Shown in pieces: positions 1-23,318 of a stretch of 24,210 nucleotides of DNA (the first letter of the stretch is position 1; every line of letters starts with the position of its first letter). The notes below the pieces were generated by a model. It ran no database searches. It saw only the letters and a list, made by a program, of their open reading frames with translations, and was not told the DNA's origin. The translations under genes were made by a program, and so were the position numbers. Origin of the DNA: a virus. The DNA is taken from IMG/VR virus record IMGVR_UViG_3300016457_001310, positions 1-24,210 of that record, one strand, 5' to 3'.

Positions 1-166
1 ATGCTTTCCCCTCATACACTTCCATCGGAACAGCCTTATCTATAGCAGCAAGCATTGCGAAGGTAACGTCTTCAGTGGGGTACTCTAGGTGCTCTCTAGT
101 GACGCTCCTGAGTGGGTGGTCTATCGGAACCTTAAGCCTGTGGTAATCGAGCACTAGGTCGGGCAC
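1..166 (-). CDS. Hypothetical protein, partial at left edge
   Basis: This is an open frame of 55 codons reading leftward that is still open at base 1, so only the N-terminus is present. The start is a GTG at 166-164, chosen because a GAGGTG ribosome-binding site lies 7 bases upstream. The visible part begins MPDLVLDYHRLKVPIDHPLR and continues as a mixed helix/strand sequence without a membrane segment. It follows the 122-residue gene at 191-559 by 24 bases and is probably in the same operon. I do not recognise the family, and nothing visible gives a function. The frame is believable because of the ribosome-binding site, the spacing and the shared strand. Confidence 0.6.
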   Translation of the reverse strand, partial: MPDLVLDYHRLKVPIDHPLRSVTREHLEYPTEDVTFAMLAAIDKAVPMEVYEGKA

Positions 167-190
167 TGCTCAGCACCTCTGTGTAGTGGT

Positions 191-559
191 TTAGACGCTG
201 CCCATTATCTCCTCTATGAATCCGTAGGGGAAGCTTCTGAGTGTGCCCTGTGTCTGGGTTATCGTAACCCTGTACTTCATCGAGGCTAGCAGGGTCTTTG
301 TATGGAACCTGATGACTGGGTTGCCCAGCGGGCCAGAGAAGTCTGTGCAGATGAACTTCTGGTAGTTCTGACCATCAACAGCGATGTACTCGCACACCGT
401 CACAGCATCACCCTCAGCAAGCTGGGAGAGATCTATGTATCCCTCCACCAGGTAGTCATCGTCGTTGGGCCCGAGCTCGACAACCGTTGTCTCGGTGTTG
501 AGATCCGATGGGGATACGGTTCCGCTGTACCTGTTCTTGGTCTGGATAACTATAGGCAT
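191..559 (-). CDS. Beta-rich small protein, paralogue A of 5085-5453
   Basis: This 122-residue protein is predicted to be nearly all beta strand (alternating patterns such as YLVEGYIDLSQL and AVTVCEYIAVDG), with no signal peptide or membrane helix. It is a clear paralogue of the 122-residue protein at 5085-5453. Both have SGTV/RGTV-(S/T)PSDLN near the N-terminus, an EGY(I/V)DLSQL block, an IAVDG block and an identical RVTITQTQGTLRSFPY block near the C-terminus. Its ATG follows directly on the stop of the 33-residue mini-gene (TAGATG), so translation is probably coupled. A small beta-sandwich in a region of fibre-like genes suggests a minor virion or fibre-associated protein, but this is inference. 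The two copies share an exact 49-bp DNA repeat (224-272). Confidence 0.85.
   Translation of the reverse strand: MPIVIQTKNRYSGTVSPSDLNTETTVVELGPNDDDYLVEGYIDLSQLAEGDAVTVCEYIAVDGQNYQKFICTDFSGPLGNPVIRFHTKTLLASMKYRVTITQTQGTLRSFPYGFIEEIMGSV
224..272. repeat. 49-bp direct repeat, copy 1
   Basis: This stretch is identical, base for base, to 5118-5166 and lies in the same orientation. It encodes the shared RVTITQTQGTLRSFPY segment of the two 122-residue paralogues. Flanking parts of the two genes differ strongly at protein and DNA level, so full identity at synonymous positions here points to recent recombination or gene conversion. Confidence 0.9.
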
Positions 560-661
560 CTAGGGATCACCGTGCTGGCTGGGGTCGTCGAGCAGTATCT
601 CAAGCCCGCAGATCACGATAATAAGAAAAATGATTGCGTATACGAGGAGCAGCGGATTCAT
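560..661 (-). CDS. 33-residue single-pass membrane mini-protein
   Basis: This very short gene encodes 33 residues. It starts MNPLLLVYAIIFLIIVICGL, a continuous hydrophobic helix from about residue 3 to 20, followed by a short acidic tail ending SQHGDP. The ATG at 661-659 is preceded by GGTGG eight bases upstream, just after the stop of the 66-residue gene. Its own stop codon touches the ATG of the 122-residue gene. The perfect fit between two genes, the ribosome-binding site and the clean membrane helix make it likely to be real. Function is unknown. Small membrane proteins of archaeal filamentous viruses can be envelope components or act in egress, but nothing here decides that. Confidence 0.65.
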   Translation of the reverse strand: MNPLLLVYAIIFLIIVICGLEILLDDPSQHGDP

Positions 662-675
662 ATATATATCCACCG

Positions 676-876
676 CTAGCGCTGGGGTGGCTCCGACCTC
701 TCGTCGGATGGACGCTTCCTGAAGTAGAAGAAGACCACTGTCTGCGCCAACACGATGAGCGCGCCTATAACCTGGTCGGGTAGCCTTATCAGCCCAGCTC
801 CGTGAGCTATGAAGCTACCGATGATCGAGCCCCATATCATCACGGCGAACACGTTCCTGAAGCTCGTCCTCACCAC
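676..876 (-). CDS. Small two-helix membrane protein
   Basis: This 66-residue protein has two hydrophobic segments, roughly residues 9-27 (VFAVMIWGSIIGSFIAHGAG) and 35-53 (QVIGALIVLAQTVVFFYF), joined by a short loop. A charged C-terminal tail (RKRPSDERSEPPQR) follows. Two short helices plus a polar tail is a holin-like layout, but many small viral membrane proteins look the same. The start is a GTG at 876 that overlaps the end of the upstream gene, with GGTGGTG five bases before it. It lies between the papain/transglutaminase-like protein and the 33-residue mini-gene in one tight operon. No family was recognised. Confidence 0.75.
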   Translation of the reverse strand: MVRTSFRNVFAVMIWGSIIGSFIAHGAGLIRLPDQVIGALIVLAQTVVFFYFRKRPSDERSEPPQR

Positions 877-1418
877 GGTTTCACCACCCTCGTTACATAC
901 CTAACCCAGCCCAGTCCATATATATAGAAGTGCCTGTCCCAAGTTGGTATTGCTACTTCCTGGGTCTGAGGCTCGAAGAGGATCGGTATTATCCTAGACT
1001 GCCAGTAGTCCATGCACTCCGCTGGATCCTCAGAGATGCAGTACAGAGCCACGTTATAGGCGTGGTACCCCAGGAACTCGCCCCTCTCATCAACTATCTT
1101 CCCACCAGTTTCAAACATGCAGTTGAAGCCCAGCAGAGACGCCACGACCTTTGCGAGGGCACTGAAATCATCGCAATCAATCAATCCTCTGTAGGTAAAG
1201 CCGTACTCCTCCTTTATCCTCCTAAACACCCTCAGGAACTCGACGAACGCGCTGGGGGTGAAGAAGTTGAACCAGTTGTCGACACCTATGGCAACACCAT
1301 CGTCGTAGAAAGCAACGTTCTGCCACACACCCCTACCGTAGTATTGCTCTATCAGTTGTTTCACCACGCTATCGTGGAGATAGTACTGGAACTGATAGGA
1401 TCCCATACGGAGAGACAT
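870..1418 (-). CDS. Papain/transglutaminase-like Cys-His domain protein
   Basis: This 182-residue protein carries a DCDDFSALAK motif at about residues 81-90, GYHAYN at 117-122 and LFEPQT at 147-152. The order Cys82 in DCDDF, then His119 in HAYN, then an EPQT block is seen in phage-encoded transglutaminase-like or papain-like proteins of unknown substrate. Cys82 and His119 would be the catalytic pair. N- and C-terminal parts are rich in aromatic residues. It could be an active peptidase or cross-linking enzyme, or a structural domain that keeps the fold. It follows the 463-residue fibre-like gene by 49 bases and overlaps the next gene by 7. A TATA-like stretch lies at about 1429-1440. The start is an ATG with GGCGGGA just upstream. 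Confidence 0.75.
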   Translation of the reverse strand: MSLRMGSYQFQYYLHDSVVKQLIEQYYGRGVWQNVAFYDDGVAIGVDNWFNFFTPSAFVEFLRVFRRIKEEYGFTYRGLIDCDDFSALAKVVASLLGFNCMFETGGKIVDERGEFLGYHAYNVALYCISEDPAECMDYWQSRIIPILFEPQTQEVAIPTWDRHFYIYGLGWVRYVTRVVKPW

Positions 1419-1467
1419 GATCCCGCCATAAAAGTGTATAGATTGCGAGGCTATAACACTAACGCCA

Positions 1468-2859
1468 TTACCACCCCAACTTCAGCACCTTACGAAGTTT
1501 ATCGATGTGCTTATCTCTTTCCTCAGTAAGCACAGACACTCTCTCCAGCCTCTTAATCCACATGCTTATAGTTTCACGCAACACGTTGTCTGACACATTC
1601 TTCAATTGTGATCTCTGTGGCTCAATCTTATGATCTATAAGGAATCCATAATAGAAATCCGCTACCTGAAATGCCTCAAGTTCAGGTACACCCAACACAT
1701 GATACGCATAATTATCCTTGCCAGCTATCCAATAGGAGAACCTCTTCCTAAATAGACGGTATTGTTCAACAGCTTCCCTATAATCTCTCGGTGGTCTAAT
1801 AGCCATTAGACCCCTTGCTTTAGCATACTCAACCTGTCTAAGTACTGCTCCCTGGCGATACGGATTATCCCTAGTAATAACTATCAGCATGTTAGTCTCT
1901 CCCTCCCTGTAGTCAAAGGCTCCCCACGATACTGATGCAATATCTATCTGATGCTTTGGTATGCGACCAAGTAGATACTCTATCTCCTCATCGGTGAAGC
2001 CCTTAGATCGAAGCATTCTGTACCTCTTAGCCTCTACAGCCACATGCGGAGGAACGCTGTGCAGTGTTGGGTCAACCTCTCTCAGATCGCTAACTAGGAG
2101 CGGTCTAAATGGCTCGTTCACACCGTCACCAGCAACCTCAGCCTCTATCACAGCTACTGCGTTGGGTAGTTGCGAGGCAACGTCTCTGATCATACCGAAG
2201 TCTATTGCGTAGCTATCGCCCGAATAGTAGTAGTTACCGAAACGACCAGAGGAGATGCTAGTATCTGTTGCGGATATGGAGCTCCAGGCACATGGATCTA
2301 TGGTGTCGACATCACGAACCTGGCCTGGAGATGATCTACATGACTTCAATGCAGATCCAGATACCTGTAGAGACGCGTGGATAATTCCAGACAAGTCAAC
2401 TGCTTCACTAGCTAACTCGGTTTCTGTGCCATTCACAACCTTATACAGCTTGTGATCCGCTGTAGCTAGCGAAGCATCAAAGTAGTTGTAGTACAGTGTG
2501 TTTACACCGTACCACCTATTGACATTGCATATAAAGTTCGTTGATAGCTTAAATAGCTGAACAACCTTCTTATCCGTTAGAACTGTTTCGTATAATGTAC
2601 CTAGACCAGATCCTCGCTTAGTCCAGATCATCCTTGCATAGGCTTTTCCTAGGGCTCTGAGATACGCTAGTTGCGAAGTAGATGGAACCTCTAGATCAAC
2701 CCTACCCACACCACCATCCTTTATCTTCGCGCTGTCTACCGAGTTGTCACATATCGTTAGCCTCCCATAGGCATCGACACAGATGTACACCTTATCTGCT
2801 ATCATCTTCGCTAGGATCTCCCTGTTCCAGAACCCCACCCGATACTCACCCCGATCCAT
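1468..2859 (-). CDS. Fibre/adhesin-like virion protein, lower GC
   Basis: This 463-residue protein appears to have two parts. The N-terminal ~60 residues contain NSVDSAKIKDGGVGRVDLE, the short linker repeat common in phage tail fibres, and the region up to about residue 215 is beta-rich with many Ser/Thr/Tyr. The C-terminal half (about 255-463) is helical and charged, includes a GFTDEEIEYLLGR segment, and ends in a basic coiled stretch. GFTDEEI-type helices also occur in the C-terminal repeats of the giant protein at 10910-17140. The ATG is preceded by GAGGGGATAG. A sampled line inside the gene (2521-2580) has 21 G/C in 60, against 32 in 60 in the neighbour at 3601-3660, so this gene may have a separate origin. 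A role in host attachment is inference. Confidence 0.8.
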   Translation of the reverse strand: MDRGEYRVGFWNREILAKMIADKVYICVDAYGRLTICDNSVDSAKIKDGGVGRVDLEVPSTSQLAYLRALGKAYARMIWTKRGSGLGTLYETVLTDKKVVQLFKLSTNFICNVNRWYGVNTLYYNYFDASLATADHKLYKVVNGTETELASEAVDLSGIIHASLQVSGSALKSCRSSPGQVRDVDTIDPCAWSSISATDTSISSGRFGNYYYSGDSYAIDFGMIRDVASQLPNAVAVIEAEVAGDGVNEPFRPLLVSDLREVDPTLHSVPPHVAVEAKRYRMLRSKGFTDEEIEYLLGRIPKHQIDIASVSWGAFDYREGETNMLIVITRDNPYRQGAVLRQVEYAKARGLMAIRPPRDYREAVEQYRLFRKRFSYWIAGKDNYAYHVLGVPELEAFQVADFYYGFLIDHKIEPQRSQLKNVSDNVLRETISMWIKRLERVSVLTEERDKHIDKLRKVLKLGW

Positions 2860-2875
2860 CTATCCCCTCGGTGCT

Positions 2876-4624
2876 TTATATTCGCTTCCTCAGCTCCTCG
2901 TAGGTTGCCCTTATGTATATGAGCGCTAGGTGGAACTGGAGGAAGTGCTCGGGCATTATCAGGTCGCCCGTCATCACAAGCATCGGGTTGCTGACGATGT
3001 CGTAGGCCTCCGAGAGGAGGCTCTCAACCTCTGGTATGCTCTCTCCCGTAGCATCCCTGTACTTGTGGTAGGTATCCCTAACGAACCTGTACAGATGTGC
3101 GCACGCCTCCATCATGTAGTTGACATGCATAGCCCTAACCTCGTCACCGCTCGAAACTGGGCTCAGCTTGGAGAGCACGCTCTCTAGGTCGCTTAGGGAG
3201 CTGGGGTAGGGCTCCGAGGTTATGGAGCTCCACAGCTCCTTGGTACCCTCCTTAACCCTGTGGATCAGGTTCAGCGGATCGTTGAAGTGGCTAGCCCTGA
3301 TAACCTCACCGAGGAGGGGCTTCTCAAGCCTATAGCCGTACACCTCCACGATCCACTTAAGGATCTCGTCTATAGCCCTACCAGCCTCGCGAAGCACCTT
3401 CAGAGGCTCCTTCCTGGTTAGGTACTCTGGAACCACATAGTCCCTCAGGATGGTCACTACCAGCCGCACAATCGATACGCTGTCGAGAGCCGTAGAAGCG
3501 TCTAGAAGGCTCTTCAGAGCGCTACGAGCAACCCTATCAAGAGCCTTAACAGCGTCCGCTACCGTGGAAGCAACAAGCTTGGCTACCCTATCCAGCGACA
3601 GAACCACATCGCTTACCGCTCTCCTAGGCTCCTTCGAGGCTAGGTACTCAGGTACAACAACGTCGAGAACGCTCCTAAGAGTAGACCTAGATACGTAGTC
3701 GCTAGCCACAGTCGCGTCATAAACCCTGAGAGGAATGCCACGACCAACCCAGTCGGTTGCCAACACAGTATCGGGTAACCTAATGGAGGGTTCCTTCGTA
3801 GCCCTATCCAGAGCCCTAGCAACATCGCTCAGGACCTTGCCCCTAACCGTCGATAGCACGTACTCGGGTACAACAGCGTCGTACACGTTCTTAACCAGCG
3901 CCCTAAAGACGCTGTCCCTAGGTATCAACGACTCGCGCCACGCCTTGGTGCTGTGCCTAACCAGGCTATCTATGCCCCTACACGCATCGAGAACCACCAC
4001 CATAGAGGTCTTCGAGAGCGCATCCGTAGCCCTACCGATGTCCCTAACCAGCTTCGCACCCTCCTTCGATAGCCTATCAAGCAACACCCCCGCATCCACC
4101 AGCGTGCGGACGAAGAAGGCTGAAACCCTAGCGAGATCTGTTAGCTTCAGAGAATCCGCCACCACCTTAGCGCTCAGCCTGCTCAGAGCATCCACAGCCC
4201 TGCCACTATCCGCTAGGGATCTCCTGAAGTGAACAGCCCTCGACACGGAGTCTACAACACTCGTCGCCTCCCTACCCACCTTCAGGGGCGCCTTGACGAG
4301 CATATCGGCTACCGCACCAGAATCCACAAACGCGCGCACGAAGTGTGCAGACACGGAGAATCCGTCTCTGCTGGTCACCGACTCGCGTACCGAGCCAGCA
4401 ACCAGCTTCGACAACGCATCGAGAATCTTAACGCCATCGAAGAGCACCTTGGATCTGTATGCTATTAAAGCATACTCGGGGATTGCATAGTCGTAGACAG
4501 CTACTGACCCCACCTTCGCAACAACGTCGCTCGCTAGAACAGTATCCGATACCTCCACGCAATAAGTAACCCCTACTAACGTGAATAGAGGTCTCTGAGC
4601 TGGTAACGCGCTGGTGAAGCTCAT
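2876..4624 (-). CDS. Protein with about 22 tandem 17-20 residue repeats
   Basis: This 582-residue protein has residues ~22-405 made of roughly 22 short degenerate repeats. The unit is about (R/K)-x-(L/V)-x-D-x5-(L)D-x-(V/L)-(S/A)-(R/K), for example LADSGRAVDALSR, LVDAGVLLDRLSK and VSDVVLSLDRVAK. A second repeat type ends in VPEY (YDAVVPEYV, LDVVVPEYL, LRDYVVPEYL) and recurs every four to eight units. Residues ~410-582 form a helical C-terminal domain without repeats. There is no signal peptide. Such regular repeats suggest an elongated fibre or scaffold, and its place among fibre-like genes fits a surface appendage, but I do not recognise the family. The ATG start has only a weak ribosome-binding site. 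Confidence 0.85.
   Translation of the reverse strand: MSFTSALPAQRPLFTLVGVTYCVEVSDTVLASDVVAKVGSVAVYDYAIPEYALIAYRSKVLFDGVKILDALSKLVAGSVRESVTSRDGFSVSAHFVRAFVDSGAVADMLVKAPLKVGREATSVVDSVSRAVHFRRSLADSGRAVDALSRLSAKVVADSLKLTDLARVSAFFVRTLVDAGVLLDRLSKEGAKLVRDIGRATDALSKTSMVVVLDACRGIDSLVRHSTKAWRESLIPRDSVFRALVKNVYDAVVPEYVLSTVRGKVLSDVARALDRATKEPSIRLPDTVLATDWVGRGIPLRVYDATVASDYVSRSTLRSVLDVVVPEYLASKEPRRAVSDVVLSLDRVAKLVASTVADAVKALDRVARSALKSLLDASTALDSVSIVRLVVTILRDYVVPEYLTRKEPLKVLREAGRAIDEILKWIVEVYGYRLEKPLLGEVIRASHFNDPLNLIHRVKEGTKELWSSITSEPYPSSLSDLESVLSKLSPVSSGDEVRAMHVNYMMEACAHLYRFVRDTYHKYRDATGESIPEVESLLSEAYDIVSNPMLVMTGDLIMPEHFLQFHLALIYIRATYEELRKRI
3405..4560 (-). repeat. Degenerate ~55-bp coding tandem repeats
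   Basis: This is the DNA behind the ~22 protein repeats of the 582-residue gene. Units are 51-60 bp and diverged, with recurring blocks reading DALSR/DRVAK and VPEYL when translated on the minus strand. Boundaries are approximate. Confidence 0.7.
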
Positions 4625-4690
4625 CGCCGATCACTTCTACCCGCTCCCACTCATCCAGAAAAAACATGTAGTGGACTCGGAGAGATAGCT

Positions 4691-5083
4691 CTACCTCCTT
4701 CCCAGCCTCTTCCTGAGCTCGGAGAGCGGCATACCGTCAGGGCACTTGACCGCACCGTAGAACTTCTCCTTCCATGTATAGGGGATCCACCTATAGCCTC
4801 CACACCGCTTCCAGTCGTGTAGAAGCGTGTAGAAGATCACCGTTATCAGGACGGCTATGCCCCACATACCGAAGAGCACAGCTATGAGAAAAAGGAAATC
4901 AGCGTATACCCTACCCCTAAGAGGGTAGTGCCTCCCATACGGGCTCCTAGACATGACGTGGTCGGCGAGAGCCCTCTTCACCCTCCGCTTGAACTCCCTC
5001 GGGCAGAGGATAGACGTTAGCCTACCGAAGGTGTAGAGCATGTACTGCTCAAGAGTCATCCCCTTGCCCAGCTTCCAACCCAT
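4691..5083 (-). CDS. Membrane protein, 130 residues
   Basis: The protein has a basic N-terminal region (LCPREFKRRVKRALADHV), a long hydrophobic stretch at about residues 62-88 (FLFLIAVLFGMWGIAVLITV) that could form one long or two short membrane helices, and a polar C-terminal region with two cysteines (KRCGG, VKCPDG) ending RKRLGRR. The ATG at 5083-5081 is preferred over the TTG at 5098 because GAGGAG lies seven bases before it. It starts directly after the stop of the 122-residue paralogue, so translation is probably coupled. Function is unknown. A virion membrane or envelope role is possible if the virus is enveloped like lipothrixviruses. Confidence 0.75.
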   Translation of the reverse strand: MGWKLGKGMTLEQYMLYTFGRLTSILCPREFKRRVKRALADHVMSRSPYGRHYPLRGRVYADFLFLIAVLFGMWGIAVLITVIFYTLLHDWKRCGGYRWIPYTWKEKFYGAVKCPDGMPLSELRKRLGRR

Positions 5084-5084
5084 G

Positions 5085-5453
5085 CTAGATCTCCTCAAGC
5101 ACTTGAACGACGAACCAGTAGGGGAAGCTTCTGAGTGTGCCCTGTGTCTGGGTTATCGTAACCCTGGGCTGGGCATCCTTTGGAAGCGTCATCGAGAGCA
5201 GGTGCACAACGGGGTTATCGAGAGGCCCGTCAACCGCTATGGTATCCAGCTTCCTCCTGTTAGACCCGTCGACAGCTATGTAGATAACCAGCTTCACCGA
5301 GTCACCGCTCTGGAGCTGCGATAGATCTACGTAGCCCTCCAGGATTATCGCGTTCTCGTATGTCCCGAGGTTGATCAGATCGGTCTCCACGTTCAGATCG
5401 CTGGGCGTTACGGTGCCTCGGTACTCCTCCTTACGCTTTATCCTGACTACCAT
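5085..5453 (-). CDS. Beta-rich small protein, paralogue B of 191-559
   Basis: This 122-residue protein has the same length and layout as 191-559: a basic N-terminus, (S/T)PSDLN, EGYVDLSQL, IAVDG and the identical RVTITQTQGTLRSFPY block. Outside these blocks many positions differ, so the duplication is old except for the 49-bp identical segment. It lies 12 bases after the tail-fibre-like gene 5466-6017 and is followed at once by a membrane protein, whereas paralogue A sits next to small membrane genes at the other end of the cassette. A beta-sandwich virion component is the best guess. Any role as an interchangeable fibre cap or adaptor is speculation. Confidence 0.85.
   Translation of the reverse strand: MVVRIKRKEEYRGTVTPSDLNVETDLINLGTYENAIILEGYVDLSQLQSGDSVKLVIYIAVDGSNRRKLDTIAVDGPLDNPVVHLLSMTLPKDAQPRVTITQTQGTLRSFPYWFVVQVLEEI
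5118..5166. repeat. 49-bp direct repeat, copy 2
   Basis: Identical to 224-272 in the same orientation. The two copies bracket about 4.9 kb of fibre-like and small membrane genes, so recombination between them would delete or exchange that block while leaving an intact hybrid 122-residue gene. Confidence 0.9.
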
Positions 5454-5465
5454 TGCTAGGCTACC

Positions 5466-6017
5466 TCACCTGCTCATCTGTATGTAGTACCTAATCGTGA
5501 TGGCGTCCCCAGCGTCGAAGTTCACTGGGACTGGGTTGAACGTCTTCCTAGCCAGCAACACACCACCAGAGGACGCGTTGAAGACCCCAGCCTCGGAGAT
5601 CTCCATACTCCCGCTAAGCCCGTCCTCGCTTGAGAACGTAGCTTCCAGGAGCGCGGTATCGCCCTCAACATCGGTCGTTGTCTGGCTAACCGAAGCCTGC
5701 TTCCTAGCGACCTCGGCTTCGAGAGCCGTATCAGTAACGGATTCGGATGTAGTGCCAGTACCGATAGCAACATACGTGAACGGCGTGCCACCGAGGTTGA
5801 ACACCAGCTTAATGATCTCCGCGAGCCCAGCGTTCGTCACAACGTTCTTCCTGAAGTAGAAGAGTACCTGGGTCTCTGGCAGAACACCCTTGGGGATGAC
5901 AGGCACTGGGTTACCGCGAGCAAGCGTAACCAGGTACTTCGGTCTACCCCTCCTGTCCCAGACTATGACCTCTACCCAGCCAGCGATAACCACCCTAGAG
6001 CTGTCTCCCCTCCACAT
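5466..6017 (-). CDS. Phage tail-fibre/structural-type beta protein
   Basis: This 183-residue protein resembles a structural domain widespread in tailed phages. It has a short helix (VVTNAGLAEIIKLVF, about 58-72), then TPFTYVAIGTGT (~78-89), a paired-strand region with DTALEAEVAR, EISEAGVFNASSGGVLLARK (~138-157) and a closing strand DAITIRYYIQMSR. This order is typical of small fibre or baseplate-associated proteins. The first ~45 residues (WVEVIVWDRRGRPKYLV) resemble the C-terminal half of the separate 42-residue gene at 6069-6197. An ATG with GGGGGA eight bases upstream and a TATA box 37 bases upstream set the start. A virion attachment component is likely. Confidence 0.8.
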   Translation of the reverse strand: MWRGDSSRVVIAGWVEVIVWDRRGRPKYLVTLARGNPVPVIPKGVLPETQVLFYFRKNVVTNAGLAEIIKLVFNLGGTPFTYVAIGTGTTSESVTDTALEAEVARKQASVSQTTTDVEGDTALLEATFSSEDGLSGSMEISEAGVFNASSGGVLLARKTFNPVPVNFDAGDAITIRYYIQMSR

Positions 6018-6053
6018 AGCTGGCTTCCCCCATCAAAGCCCTTCTCCTACCAC

Positions 6054-6064
6054 CTTATAAATAC
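6054..6064 (-). promoter_or_regulatory. TATA box for the tail-fibre-like gene
   Basis: Reads GTATTTATAAG on the minus strand, about 37 bases before the ATG at 6017. The spacing leaves a short leader that contains the ribosome-binding site. Confidence 0.55.
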
Positions 6065-6068
6065 GCTT

Positions 6069-6197
6069 CTATCCCTGCACAACGTACTTGACCCTGCCCT
6101 CCCTGTCCCTAACAATGATCTCAAGCCTAACGGATGTCCTAGCCGAGTCGAGCCTATGCGGTCTATAGCTCCGCCTAGCAACGGTCTCCCGCTTCAC
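6069..6197 (-). CDS. 42-residue mini-gene resembling a fibre N-terminus
   Basis: A GTG-initiated frame encodes 42 residues: a basic N-terminal half (MKRETVARRSYRPHRL) and a beta-like C-terminal half ending RLEIIVRDREGRVKYVVQG. That end matches the N-terminal part of the next gene (WVEVIVWDRRGRPKYLV), so it is either a partial duplication or a small separate protein sharing one motif. A TATA-like sequence lies 34-42 bases upstream, and a GAGAAG-type ribosome-binding site is weak. It fills an otherwise empty 230-base gap between a glycosyltransferase and the fibre-like gene. It could also be a decayed fragment. Confidence 0.5.
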   Translation of the reverse strand: MKRETVARRSYRPHRLDSARTSVRLEIIVRDREGRVKYVVQG

Positions 6198-6230
6198 CTT
6201 CTCTACCCCAACCCTCTACGCGCTAGGAAA

Positions 6231-6239
6231 GTATATACC
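6231..6239 (-). promoter_or_regulatory. Candidate TATA box before the 42-residue gene
   Basis: GGTATATAC on the minus strand, just past the stop of the glycosyltransferase gene and ~37 bases before the GTG at 6197. Only position and sequence support it. Confidence 0.4.
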
Positions 6240-6247
6240 TCTATACA

Positions 6248-7369
6248 CTAGTCGGATACTATCTCCACCAGCCTCAGAGCTATGATATCCCATCTATACT
6301 CCTTCGAGAGCACCTTCTCTCTCCATTCCCGTACCCTCGCCTTGTACTCGTCTAGGTTATCCAGGATTACGTGCAACTTGTTGAGAGCGTCCTCGACATC
6401 GACAGCGTAGCCGTAGCCACCGTGAAAGGCGTTTCCTGGTAGGGGCTGAACCCTCCTACCCTTCTTGACCCACAGGAACGGGGGTACGTACTCAGACCAC
6501 GAACCGTACTCGCATGCGAGCACTGGCACACCCCTAGCAAGCGATTCTAGAGCAACCATCTCGAAGCCACCGCCTCGGCTGAACATCAGGGTTACGTCAG
6601 CCATATCGAAGAGCGCCATCTTCTCGTAGTCGCTCAGCCACTCGTATACCTGAAGTGCGCCGTACTGCATGACCTGCTGGTACTCGGGTATGTTGGGGAA
6701 CACCGTCTTCAGGACCAGAGCAACATCCTTCCTCTCCCTAGCAAGCCTGGTATACACCTCGTACACCTCTGGCCAGCCCTTCCTCTCACCGCTGTGGACA
6801 AGGAAGAACAGTATGAACTTCTTGTTCCTCCTCATCTTATAGAGGTAGAGCTGCACAAGCGATGAGCTGAGCCTCTGCCTCGGCGCGATCTCCCATACAT
6901 TGGGTGTTGTATACCACTCAGGGTCGACACCGTGCGGAAGCCTGTAGACCCTAGCCCTCACCCCAGACCTCCTAGCCACCTCCACACAGAAGCTGGAGGG
7001 CACGACGAACTTGTCGAACCTGTTAGCTATGGAGACCGCGTAGTCGGTATACGCATCGGAGTCGCAGACATCTATACCTATGAGCTGGTCGTAGAAGCCC
7101 CTCCACCACTGGTAGTAGTCCTCCCTAAACCTACCCCATATATCCTTCCTGCTCTCAAGAACCCTAAACATGATGAAGAAGCCTGGGTGTAGAATCAGGG
7201 AGTACTTGGTCGATGGCGTGAACGCTGGTACCATAAGCTCGTCGAGCTCGTACACCGACACATACCCAAGCCTCCTCATATACTCCAGATGCTTCCTCGC
7301 CACCAGCGTGAAGCTGACGGTGTGCCACTGAGGATAGGCATAGAGTATCGGCTTCAAGACTAGCCCCAC
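6248..7369 (-). CDS. GT4-type glycosyltransferase
   Basis: This 373-residue protein has a GT-B layout. The N-terminal Rossmann-like half includes a VVPSSFCVEVARRSGV segment (~122-137) and LPHGVDPEWY (~144-153), typical of GT4 enzymes just before the linker. The C-terminal half includes FLVHSGERKGWPEV (~189-202) and FSRGGGFEMVALESLARGVP (263-282), the nucleotide-sugar binding block. The usual first Glu of the E-x7-E motif is replaced by Gly (G267), while the second (E275) remains; such GGGF variants occur in some GT4 proteins. It would transfer a sugar from an activated donor to a virion protein, lipid or host glycan. The GTG at 7369 is the annotated start; a TTG four codons later with a better ribosome-binding site is an alternative. 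Confidence 0.85.
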   Translation of the reverse strand: MGLVLKPILYAYPQWHTVSFTLVARKHLEYMRRLGYVSVYELDELMVPAFTPSTKYSLILHPGFFIMFRVLESRKDIWGRFREDYYQWWRGFYDQLIGIDVCDSDAYTDYAVSIANRFDKFVVPSSFCVEVARRSGVRARVYRLPHGVDPEWYTTPNVWEIAPRQRLSSSLVQLYLYKMRRNKKFILFFLVHSGERKGWPEVYEVYTRLARERKDVALVLKTVFPNIPEYQQVMQYGALQVYEWLSDYEKMALFDMADVTLMFSRGGGFEMVALESLARGVPVLACEYGSWSEYVPPFLWVKKGRRVQPLPGNAFHGGYGYAVDVEDALNKLHVILDNLDEYKARVREWREKVLSKEYRWDIIALRLVEIVSD

Positions 7370-7413
7370 CCCACTCCATGTAGATGGGTAACCGTGGAGA
7401 AGCTGAAAAACGT

Positions 7414-8127
7414 CTAATGCTGTACCAAGCCAAGCGCCTTCACTACCCAGTAAACGACCTCAGATGCCCCCCTAGGCGGCTCGTCAAAGTTGGTGATAGC
7501 CGTGGCGTCCCTAATGTGGTAGAGCGCGGGTATAGGAGTGTCCCTAACATCGCTCGTAAAGCCGTGGTCTGACACCACCAGCCACCGCCTAGGCTTGAAC
7601 GTCTCTATCAGGTCGAGAGCCAGCTTGCATGCCAGGTCGTACCACTCTATCGCTGTTCTAAGCGCGTCTATGCTTGGTATGGTGGAGAAGAAGTGGTGAT
7701 GAGGCTGATCGGGTACGGGGTACCAAACGAAGAGGATATCCGCATCCCCGTTAGCCTTTACGTAGCTGTGGTACTTCATCAACACCTCCCTAAACCGCTC
7801 CTTAGGCGGCGAGAAGAAGTCCACCCAGTTAGCAGGCCTCGGAACGCCGTGGTATATCGGTGGCATGCATGCTGGTATATTGATAGCCTTTACCCTCCTA
7901 CCCGTAACGAGATCCCATACCCAGGTCGTTATGGTTCCAGGAACGAACTTCCTTAGCTGGAAGAAGGTTGCCATAACCGTGGGGGTCTCTGGAATCACAT
8001 CGACGTACATCATGCAGCGCTTAGCCCCTGGATAGCTCCAGAGCCTACGTATACTCTCTCCCCACCAACAAAACACATTTGCAAAGACGTAGCTGAGACC
8101 GTCTAGCACCACCACCAGGACATCCAT
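7414..8127 (-). CDS. Alkaline-phosphatase-superfamily phosphodiesterase-like
   Basis: This 237-residue protein begins with VLVVVLDGL (metal-binding Asp9), followed by PETPTVMATFF (candidate nucleophile Thr48 or Thr50). It then has PDQPHHHFF (Asp140 with His143-145) and VVSDHGF (Asp187, His188), with a later His204. This order is that of the type I phosphodiesterase/nucleotide pyrophosphatase branch of the superfamily, which uses two metals to cut phosphate esters. It is shorter than many cellular members, so it is probably a compact catalytic core. It sits between a membrane coiled-coil protein and a glycosyltransferase, which suggests glycan or lipid-headgroup processing. The substrate cannot be read from sequence. 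No signal peptide is seen, so it probably works in the cytoplasm. Confidence 0.75.
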   Translation of the reverse strand: MDVLVVVLDGLSYVFANVFCWWGESIRRLWSYPGAKRCMMYVDVIPETPTVMATFFQLRKFVPGTITTWVWDLVTGRRVKAINIPACMPPIYHGVPRPANWVDFFSPPKERFREVLMKYHSYVKANGDADILFVWYPVPDQPHHHFFSTIPSIDALRTAIEWYDLACKLALDLIETFKPRRWLVVSDHGFTSDVRDTPIPALYHIRDATAITNFDEPPRGASEVVYWVVKALGLVQH

Positions 8128-18869: not shown

Positions 18870-19244
18870 TTAGTACGGTGGTACGGCTCCTATGAGTGCC
18901 TCTATGATCCTGTCGAGCACTGCTGGATCGCACTTGTAGGCCGTTACGAAGTAGCTCTTGATGCCGCTAACCTCCTTCTGGAGTGTTAGACCGCTGTGGC
19001 TGAACATTGTCTTAGCTACTATCTGCGCGAAGGCTAGATAGGGAGCCCATAGACCAGTTGGCACACCCTCTTCGCTCAGGATGTTCCTAGCTACCTCCAC
19101 AGCGTTGTATATGGCGGCAGTAGCGCTCTCGAACCTAGCCTCCATAATGGGCTTGACAGCCGTCAGCCTGTTGGTCACGTTGGTACCGTCGTACTTAGCC
19201 TCGTACTTGGCTCTCATATCACCTAATCTCTTAACGATGGGCAT
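18870..19244 (-). CDS. Major capsid protein paralogue (SIRV-type fold)
   Basis: This 124-residue helical protein resembles rod-shaped virus capsid proteins. It has a basic, aromatic N-terminal arm (RLGDMRAKYEAKY), then ARNILSEEGVPTGLWAPYLA (like the ...YGI.GPSRAIYQGYG block of SIRV2) and KEVSGIKSYFVTAYKCDPAV (like AGLKAYYVSAYGANPE). A final helix ends in ALIG. It shares the MPIVK start and the same block order with the 118-residue protein just upstream, so the two are paralogues and may form a heterodimer that wraps A-form DNA, as in lipothrixviruses. A GGGGTGAGATCCC leader precedes the ATG, 26 bases after the other gene. The family call is by motif comparison from memory. Confidence 0.8.
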   Translation of the reverse strand: MPIVKRLGDMRAKYEAKYDGTNVTNRLTAVKPIMEARFESATAAIYNAVEVARNILSEEGVPTGLWAPYLAFAQIVAKTMFSHSGLTLQKEVSGIKSYFVTAYKCDPAVLDRIIEALIGAVPPY

Positions 19245-19270: not shown

Positions 19271-19627
19271 TTATCCAACTATCAGGTTCGCGATCTTGTC
19301 TAGTATAGCGGGGTCGGCACCCTTAGCAACGAACCACTGCTTGAGACCGCTGGCAATCGCTTGCAGGTCAGCACCCTCGTGGCTCAGAGCCTTGCTTGCT
19401 AGCTTCATCGCGAACGCGTAGTAGACACCGTGGAACCCTGCTGGAACACCCTCGCTCTCAAGTATGTTCCTAACGCGCTCCCTGACAGCCGCCATCACGC
19501 CGCTGCCCTCGATGTACCTAGTCACAGCGATGTCCTTTACCGCACCGTATCTAGTACCTGTCTGATCTGGTGGTGTCTTTGCCTTGAACTTCTCTACTCG
19601 GTCTGCAAGGGTCTTGACTATGGGCAT
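19271..19627 (-). CDS. Major capsid protein paralogue (SIRV-type fold)
   Basis: 118 residues and first gene of the leftward operon. After MPIVKTLADRVEKFKAK it has VRNILESEGVPAGFHGVYYA and IASGLKQWFVAKGADPAILD, ending NLIVG. The order and spacing match the C-terminal helical core of SIRV-like capsid proteins (VAGLKAYYVSAYG, then NPEILD and NIILG). It also pairs with the 124-residue paralogue downstream. The N-terminal part is rich in Lys/Arg, suitable for DNA contact. It has a strong setup for high expression: a TATA box ~40 bases upstream, GAGGTAG before the ATG, and its position as first gene. In lipothrixviruses two such proteins alternate along the filament; the same here is inference. Confidence 0.82.
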   Translation of the reverse strand: MPIVKTLADRVEKFKAKTPPDQTGTRYGAVKDIAVTRYIEGSGVMAAVRERVRNILESEGVPAGFHGVYYAFAMKLASKALSHEGADLQAIASGLKQWFVAKGADPAILDKIANLIVG

Positions 19628-22892: not shown

Positions 22893-23309
22893 TCAGATGA
22901 TCTCGGATAGCTTTTTGGCTCGGTCGAACATCTGTTTTGTGATTACGTACCTAACGCCTTTCTCCCACTGTTGCTTCTCAAGAACCTCAAGTGGGAATAC
23001 GTACCACTGCTTCTCTTCCGAGACCCTGACCGCTATGTATGCCTCTCCCCCTGCTCTCCTAGCGAAGTTCTCCAGCATCCACACCTTGGGCGCGGCGAGG
23101 TATATCGCGTCTCTATGTTTCCTGAGCTTAACCTCGAAGACCAGAACCCTGTACCTAGAACCATCGAACTTAACAGCGAAGACATCTGGATAGAAAACCC
23201 TTCTTGTCTTAGCACCAGAGGCGGGGGCTCTCATTACTGCATACCCTGCTCTTCTAAGCTTCTTAACCAGCTCCAGCTCAGCTTGCTTACCCCTTCGATA
23301 GAAGCTCAT
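22893..23309 (-). CDS. hjc: Archaeal Holliday junction resolvase (Hjc-type)
   Basis: This nuclease of about 138 residues has the Hjc layout: MSFYRRGKQAELELVKKL with the conserved RG and Glu, then an APASG loop containing the conserved Ser. VFYPDVFAVK follows with the catalytic Asp, and LVFEVKLRKH with the Glu-x-Lys pair. The length fits the family (about 120-145). It would cut four-way DNA junctions during replication or recombination, acting as a dimer. Rudiviruses encode such an enzyme, thought to resolve linked replication intermediates. The ATG at 23309 is used because the family normally starts just before the RG motif; a GTG at 23318 directly after the upstream stop is possible. It is transcribed with the small genes to its right. 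Confidence 0.88.
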   Translation of the reverse strand: MSFYRRGKQAELELVKKLRRAGYAVMRAPASGAKTRRVFYPDVFAVKFDGSRYRVLVFEVKLRKHRDAIYLAAPKVWMLENFARRAGGEAYIAVRVSEEKQWYVFPLEVLEKQQWEKGVRYVITKQMFDRAKKLSEII

Positions 23310-23318
23310 TTCCAGCAC

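Follow-up and report, generated by a model that had tools for sequence, protein, structure and literature searches.

A 49-bp direct repeat, probably a gene conversion scar, between old jelly-roll paralogues in the fibre region of a rudivirus-like genome

The window analyzed here is the whole record IMGVR_UViG_3300016457_001310, a stretch of 24,210 bases from an uncultivated virus. Its left part carries a fibre-like gene region with two paralogous genes, B (191..559) and A (5085..5453), which share a perfect 49-bp direct repeat. At its left end, and probably also at its right end, the record ends inside a gene; no inverted terminal repeat was detected in it, its genome termini being missing. 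Two tandem coat proteins match the family Sulf_coat_C (PF12193; 1e-12 and 9e-12) and lead by tblastn to rudivirus coat proteins. Their genes (18870-19244 and 19271-19627) have diverged to 42% identity, and the pair is kept in three other genomes (G001, G002 and G005); two coat protein genes are a known trait of part of the Ligamenvirales (PMC10848311). A protein of 2082 aa matches PHROG 7334 at 8e-58 as well as a rudivirus "putative minor structural protein", and P1070-type proteins of this kind have a described role in rudiviruses, where P1070 belongs to the terminal filaments (PMC10848311). In addition, the record encodes two glycosyltransferases and, on the minus strand, a viral Holliday-junction resolvase Hjc (22893..23318), the sole recombination protein recognized in it. 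Between a glycosyltransferase and a methyltransferase gene lies a 237-residue protein (7414-8127) matching type I phosphodiesterase/nucleotide pyrophosphatase (Pfam PF01663, 4e-6). Altogether, the Sulf_coat_C coat proteins, the rudivirus-type minor structural protein, Hjc and the glycosyltransferases argue that the record, judged by its genes, is a 24.2-kb piece of the genome of a rudivirus-like member of the Ligamenvirales, a rod-shaped virus of heat-loving archaea.

The two paralogues, each of 122 aa and encoded on the minus strand like all genes of the region listed below, enclose an interval of five genes. From B towards A, these are an ORF for a small probable membrane protein of 66 aa (676..876), a 182-aa protein with the motif DCDDFS...GYHAYNV (870..1418), a 463-aa fibre-like protein whose family shows variable N-termini and a shared body (1468..2859), a 582-aa repetitive fibre-like protein with relatives in L033 (inverted) and L035 according to sequence comparison (2876..4624), and an ORF that overlaps the 3' end of A and encodes a probable membrane protein of 135 aa (4691..5098). 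The 182-aa protein is without a family hit of its own; by eye, its motif resembles a protein of 221 aa that occupies the corresponding position in L033, and it possibly adopts a cysteine-peptidase-like fold. Members of the 463-aa family are also present in G001 and G004 and in four MAG contigs, of which three bear an archaeal label and one a bacterial label; the model of the 463-aa protein itself (pLDDT 58) was too poor for a fold search. On the far side of B, the contig end cuts a second gene of this family, of which about 55 codons of the 5' part are left (1..166); in G001 (where B is degraded), G004 and L035, this family is the conserved neighbour immediately after B. On the far side of A lies a 183-aa tail-fibre-like protein (5466..6017; PHROG tail fibre, Pfam Gp80 below the cut-off), which L033 and L035 have also conserved immediately before A. 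The initial annotation had spoken of a fibre cassette, and the interval does sit in a fibre-like region; the term "fibre-like" reflects folds, repeats and position, and on the same grounds the region may serve in host recognition.

Structure prediction for B (AlphaFold2, seven sequences aligned) gave an eight-strand jelly roll with a pLDDT of 94. Among solved structures, subunits of Bacillus endospore appendages come closest in fold, and domains of virus capsids, C1q-like domains and domains of phage spikes or baseplates match as well, so that the predicted fold fits a structural or decoration role. Neither Pfam nor PHROG holds a family for A or B, and a sequence profile search of the PDB returned weak hits only. 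No relatives emerged from scans with A or B as the single query, from a first search of genome contigs with the A/B alignment, from a DNA search of window positions 1-8000 in a phage collection, or from a tblastn search of the isolate phage collection with the B-type protein of G003. Relatives of the two proteins were recovered only through alignment searches. For the locus as a whole, relatives were gathered with alignments of A/B, the coat proteins and the 463-residue fibre-like protein; they are G001 (L008), G002 (L009/L010), G003 (L027/L028), G004 (L025/L026), L033 (G007), L034 and L035, the last a MAG contig labelled Thermofilales, plus more distant ones. In a tree, an A lineage (window, L033 and L035) stands apart from the remaining sequences with a support of 100/99, which identifies A and B as old paralogues and not as a recent duplication. 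Both lineages coexist also in L033 and L035.

Against this background of old divergence, the 49-bp tract stands out. Its copies at 224..272 in B and 5118..5166 in A, both on the minus strand and encoding RVTITQTQGTLRSFPY, are identical at 49/49 positions and in the same orientation, as had been claimed for them; extended to 218-272 and 5112-5166, identity is 53/55. Their start-to-start spacing is 4894 bp. The tract occurs at only these two places in the record, even when up to 3 mismatches are allowed, and no other exact repeat of the window comes near it in length, the other direct repeats not containing any exact 25-bp word. The two copies share nucleotide offset 287 in genes of 369 nt each (122 codons and a stop) and are read in the same frame. 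The genes carrying them are otherwise diverged, also as previously stated, with 49% amino-acid and 52% nucleotide identity outside the tract. The edges are sharp: the 60 nt next to the tract on one side are about 43% identical, and the 33 nt on the other side about 42%. At the outside identity, about 3e-12 runs of 49 bases would be expected per gene. Synonymous codons of A and B agree at 16/16 positions in the tract vs 21/43 outside.

In the relatives, this tract has no counterpart at the DNA level. As a word it is absent from all relatives read, the longest match being 12 bp, and the A/B pairs of L033 and L035 are not homogenized in the corresponding stretch, with 5/11 and 2/9 silent matches. 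The tract identity is thus recent and specific to the lineage of the window.

We then compared the gene content between and around A and B across the relatives. The initial annotation had suggested looking for different content between the two genes, and content indeed differs. In L035, A and B are adjacent with zero genes between them, compared to five in the window; the order there is a tail-fibre-like protein of the 5466-6017 type, A/B, and then the fibre-like family that also follows B in the window. L033 shows a reversed order, in which B has moved upstream beside an inverted relative of the 582-residue protein and other genes lie between A and the fibre-like gene. In G001, the intact B-type gene is inverted and adjoins an 821-residue repeat protein, which resembles the 582-residue protein near the C-terminus only. 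About 270 bp away from this gene, which carries a different tail, an orphan B-type C-terminal end lies on the minus strand (L008:1765-1808). This orphan, located immediately ahead of the fibre-like gene, represents the final ten codons of the native B, and 26/30 of its bases match the window (compared by eye). In G001, homology with the B locus ends at most about 2 bp from the 3' edge of the tract; in this one case, the agreement could be a coincidence or a hint of a recurrent breakpoint. There is little similarity upstream of the break (p 0.02 over 90 nt, 0.24 overall). No further orphan B tail rose above noise in a search that had little power, as it failed to recover even the G001 tail. Together with the arrangement in G003, the inconstant gene content across the window, L035, L033 and G001 indicates that the region turns over quickly. 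On comparison of these sequences, the locus is best described as a mosaic, fast-changing fibre region.

Several further features were observed in the relatives. G003 has three consecutive jelly-roll-domain genes, two of them with N-terminal extensions (L027:1328-3050). Tandem fibre-region genes of 266 and 268 codons (L009:2427-4037) are 69% identical over the first 145 residues and have different ends. G004 is represented by a 104-kb contig (L025/L026) with a perfect inverted terminal repeat of at least 14 kb, which contains a B-type gene and may be a mirrored assembly; within this repeat, a fibre-like and a glycosyltransferase gene carry intein-like insertions, as judged against an uninterrupted relative of the former. 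In the fibre region of the rudivirus-like contig L035 (L035:5061-6888), a pair of ORFs with cysteine repeats precedes a gene for a radical SAM protein (Pfam PF04055, 6e-17). The N-terminus of this protein bears the same cysteine repeat, and the cluster looks RiPP-like (modified-peptide).

How did two old paralogues come to share a perfect tract? One explanation without any recombination would be purifying selection on a conserved structural hairpin of the jelly roll. Indeed, the tract maps to the last two strands of the B model, and its C-terminal motif is conserved across the family, its protein stretch being among the more conserved ones. With the tract lying at homologous positions of the two genes, selection does account for part of the protein identity, but not for the silent sites. 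Judged by codon usage, 16 independent codon matches would arise by chance with a probability of about 1e-7, and where relatives keep these residues, only about a third to half of the silent codons agree. Even B and its nearest relative in G001 agree at only 7/12 silent sites in this stretch, which are therefore not frozen by selection. Already contradicted by the silent sites, selection is a highly improbable explanation of the repeat. An assembly or amplification chimera, in which a shared stretch led to the joining of B reads into A or to the merging of two strains, has in its favour that we are dealing with a single metagenomic contig truncated at both ends and with a repeat shorter than a typical read. 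However, such an artefact would need two clean borders inside one gene, in frame and in register. Moreover, both genes are consistent with their lineages on either side of the tract, and L033, L035, G001 and G004 support the flanking order, in which A is preceded by the 5466-6017 gene and B is followed by the truncated fibre gene. We therefore regard a chimera as unlikely.

A similarly low probability is assigned to a Campbell-type event, in which an excised or foreign circle entered one jelly-roll gene by a single crossover and the repeats mark the ends of the insertion. The adjacent A and B of L035 speak for it insofar as a block must have been gained or lost between them in some lineage. 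However, the N-terminal parts of A and B come from two old lineages, so the genes are not halves of one interrupted gene; hybrids with swapped ends would also be predicted, whereas both genes of the window are consistently A or B, a comparison in which the few codons after the tract give little power. A target-site duplication was rejected on the grounds that both genes are full length and their N-terminal parts differ. A diversity-generating retroelement is unlikely as well, given that the copies are identical and no reverse transcriptase was found among the proteins scanned. The initial annotation had suggested that excision or swapping of the block, with an intact hybrid left behind, could be a natural exchange system for host-recognition genes. 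In such a system, the repeats would be maintained crossover sites at which the 4.9-kb fibre block is excised, swapped or re-acquired. The geometry permits this: the copies lie in the same orientation and frame, and a crossover, possible in principle, is predicted to excise 4894 bp and to leave an in-frame hybrid of 122 residues. This prediction is, however, a property of any in-register repeat between paralogues, and no such product was found; every A/B gene is of pure A or B type in the tree. The variable gene content and the broken B locus of G001 at the tract edge, with an intact inverted B nearby, would also suit an exchange system. Against it stand the relatives' A and B genes, which have neither a long shared tract nor the 49-bp word, and the finding that no tyrosine or serine recombinase (PF00589, PF00239; integrase/resolvase), as expected for a fibre switch of the Phi-Ch1, Mu or shufflon type, was detected in the record (G000) and four relatives, all of them fragments, in searches with positive controls. 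An invertible switch in G001, which would have inverted B and left its native tail behind, was rejected in view of the weak upstream similarity and of the finding that no significant inverted repeat explains the inversion; in the window itself, the repeat is direct and does not consist of inverted sites flanking an invertible segment. With no repeat, hybrid, detectable site-specific recombinase or flanking sites in the relatives, the variation in gene content is not attributable to the repeat. The original proposal is thus only partly supported: the repeat, the divergence of the genes around it, the predicted hybrid and the variable content stand, while a dedicated system is unsupported and, in our estimate, very unlikely. 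Equally doubtful is the broader idea that the A/B pair is a recombination platform changing which fibre genes are carried or expressed, in which C-terminal crossovers would excise or replace the block and the G001 break may have moved B between fibre genes.

We consider it likely that the repeat was left by a single non-reciprocal event between A and B, recent and short, either a gene conversion or a template-switch patch, and that it is not a maintained recombination site. This reading builds on the homologous position and frame of the copies, the identity of every silent site, the sharp edges, the unconserved DNA in relatives and the old age of the two lineages; selection would contribute to part of the identity. 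Since the tract is present in one virus record only, the event is reconstructed from one case. B was probably the donor and A the recipient. In the tract, A is closer to B relatives than to A relatives, and lower values occur in only 2/108 nucleotide and 7/108 residue windows, a comparison of small power; the direction derives from 16 codons and few relatives. The patch might have been made by the host RadA pathway together with a viral or host resolvase, and the Hjc encoded by the record counts in favour of a conversion. The recombination machinery of the likely hosts is inferred here by analogy to Sulfolobus only; short-patch gene conversion with multiple short tracts has been described in Sulfolobus acidocaldarius (PMC4471258). 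A literature search on gene conversion in rudiviruses returned nothing relevant. The A and B proteins themselves could be adaptor or decoration domains of the terminal fibres, and the variable genes between them would reflect general mosaic turnover and not a programmed use of the repeat.

If this reading is right, the locus illustrates clearly how a short patch is converted in nature between old paralogues of an archaeal virus. It also draws attention to a fibre region that is hypervariable and in which a jelly-roll pair recurs, across a poorly known rudivirus-like group. Should the repeat be used repeatedly, it would provide an exchange route for host recognition in this virus group, for which we know of no such route, our search not having been exhaustive.

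Among known viruses, the isolates of the Rudiviridae and Chiyouviridae (Ligamenvirales) share with the record the Sulf_coat_C capsid proteins, a large P1070-like minor structural protein, Hjc and glycosyltransferases (PMC10848311). However, the capsid protein encoded at 18870-19244 is only about 25-30% identical to theirs and, unlike in the record, no A/B jelly-roll gene was recovered from the searched isolate collection, for which a B-type query only was used. The conversion patches of S. acidocaldarius are likewise short and non-reciprocal, arising between similar sequences in a hyperthermophilic archaeon (PMC4471258); they were observed upon transformation of chromosomal markers, whereas the present case concerns paralogous virus genes and a mechanism inferred from one sequence. 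The invertible tail-fibre genes ORF34/ORF36 of Phi-Ch1 (PMC4284463) are a further instance of an archaeal virus whose fibre genes recombine, with alternative ends as the outcome. There, a recombinase gene lies within the invertible segment, whereas here the repeat is direct and neither a recombinase nor inverted sites were found. Besides that, the tail-fibre mosaicism of temperate phages, driven by relaxed homologous recombination, shows how diverged fibre genes exchange via short identity, and the longest perfect stretch in the lambda/Rac fibre region also measures 49 bp (PMC3945230). Those exchanges take place between phages and prophages and involve Rad52-like recombinases, whereas the patch described here probably arose between two genes of one archaeal virus.
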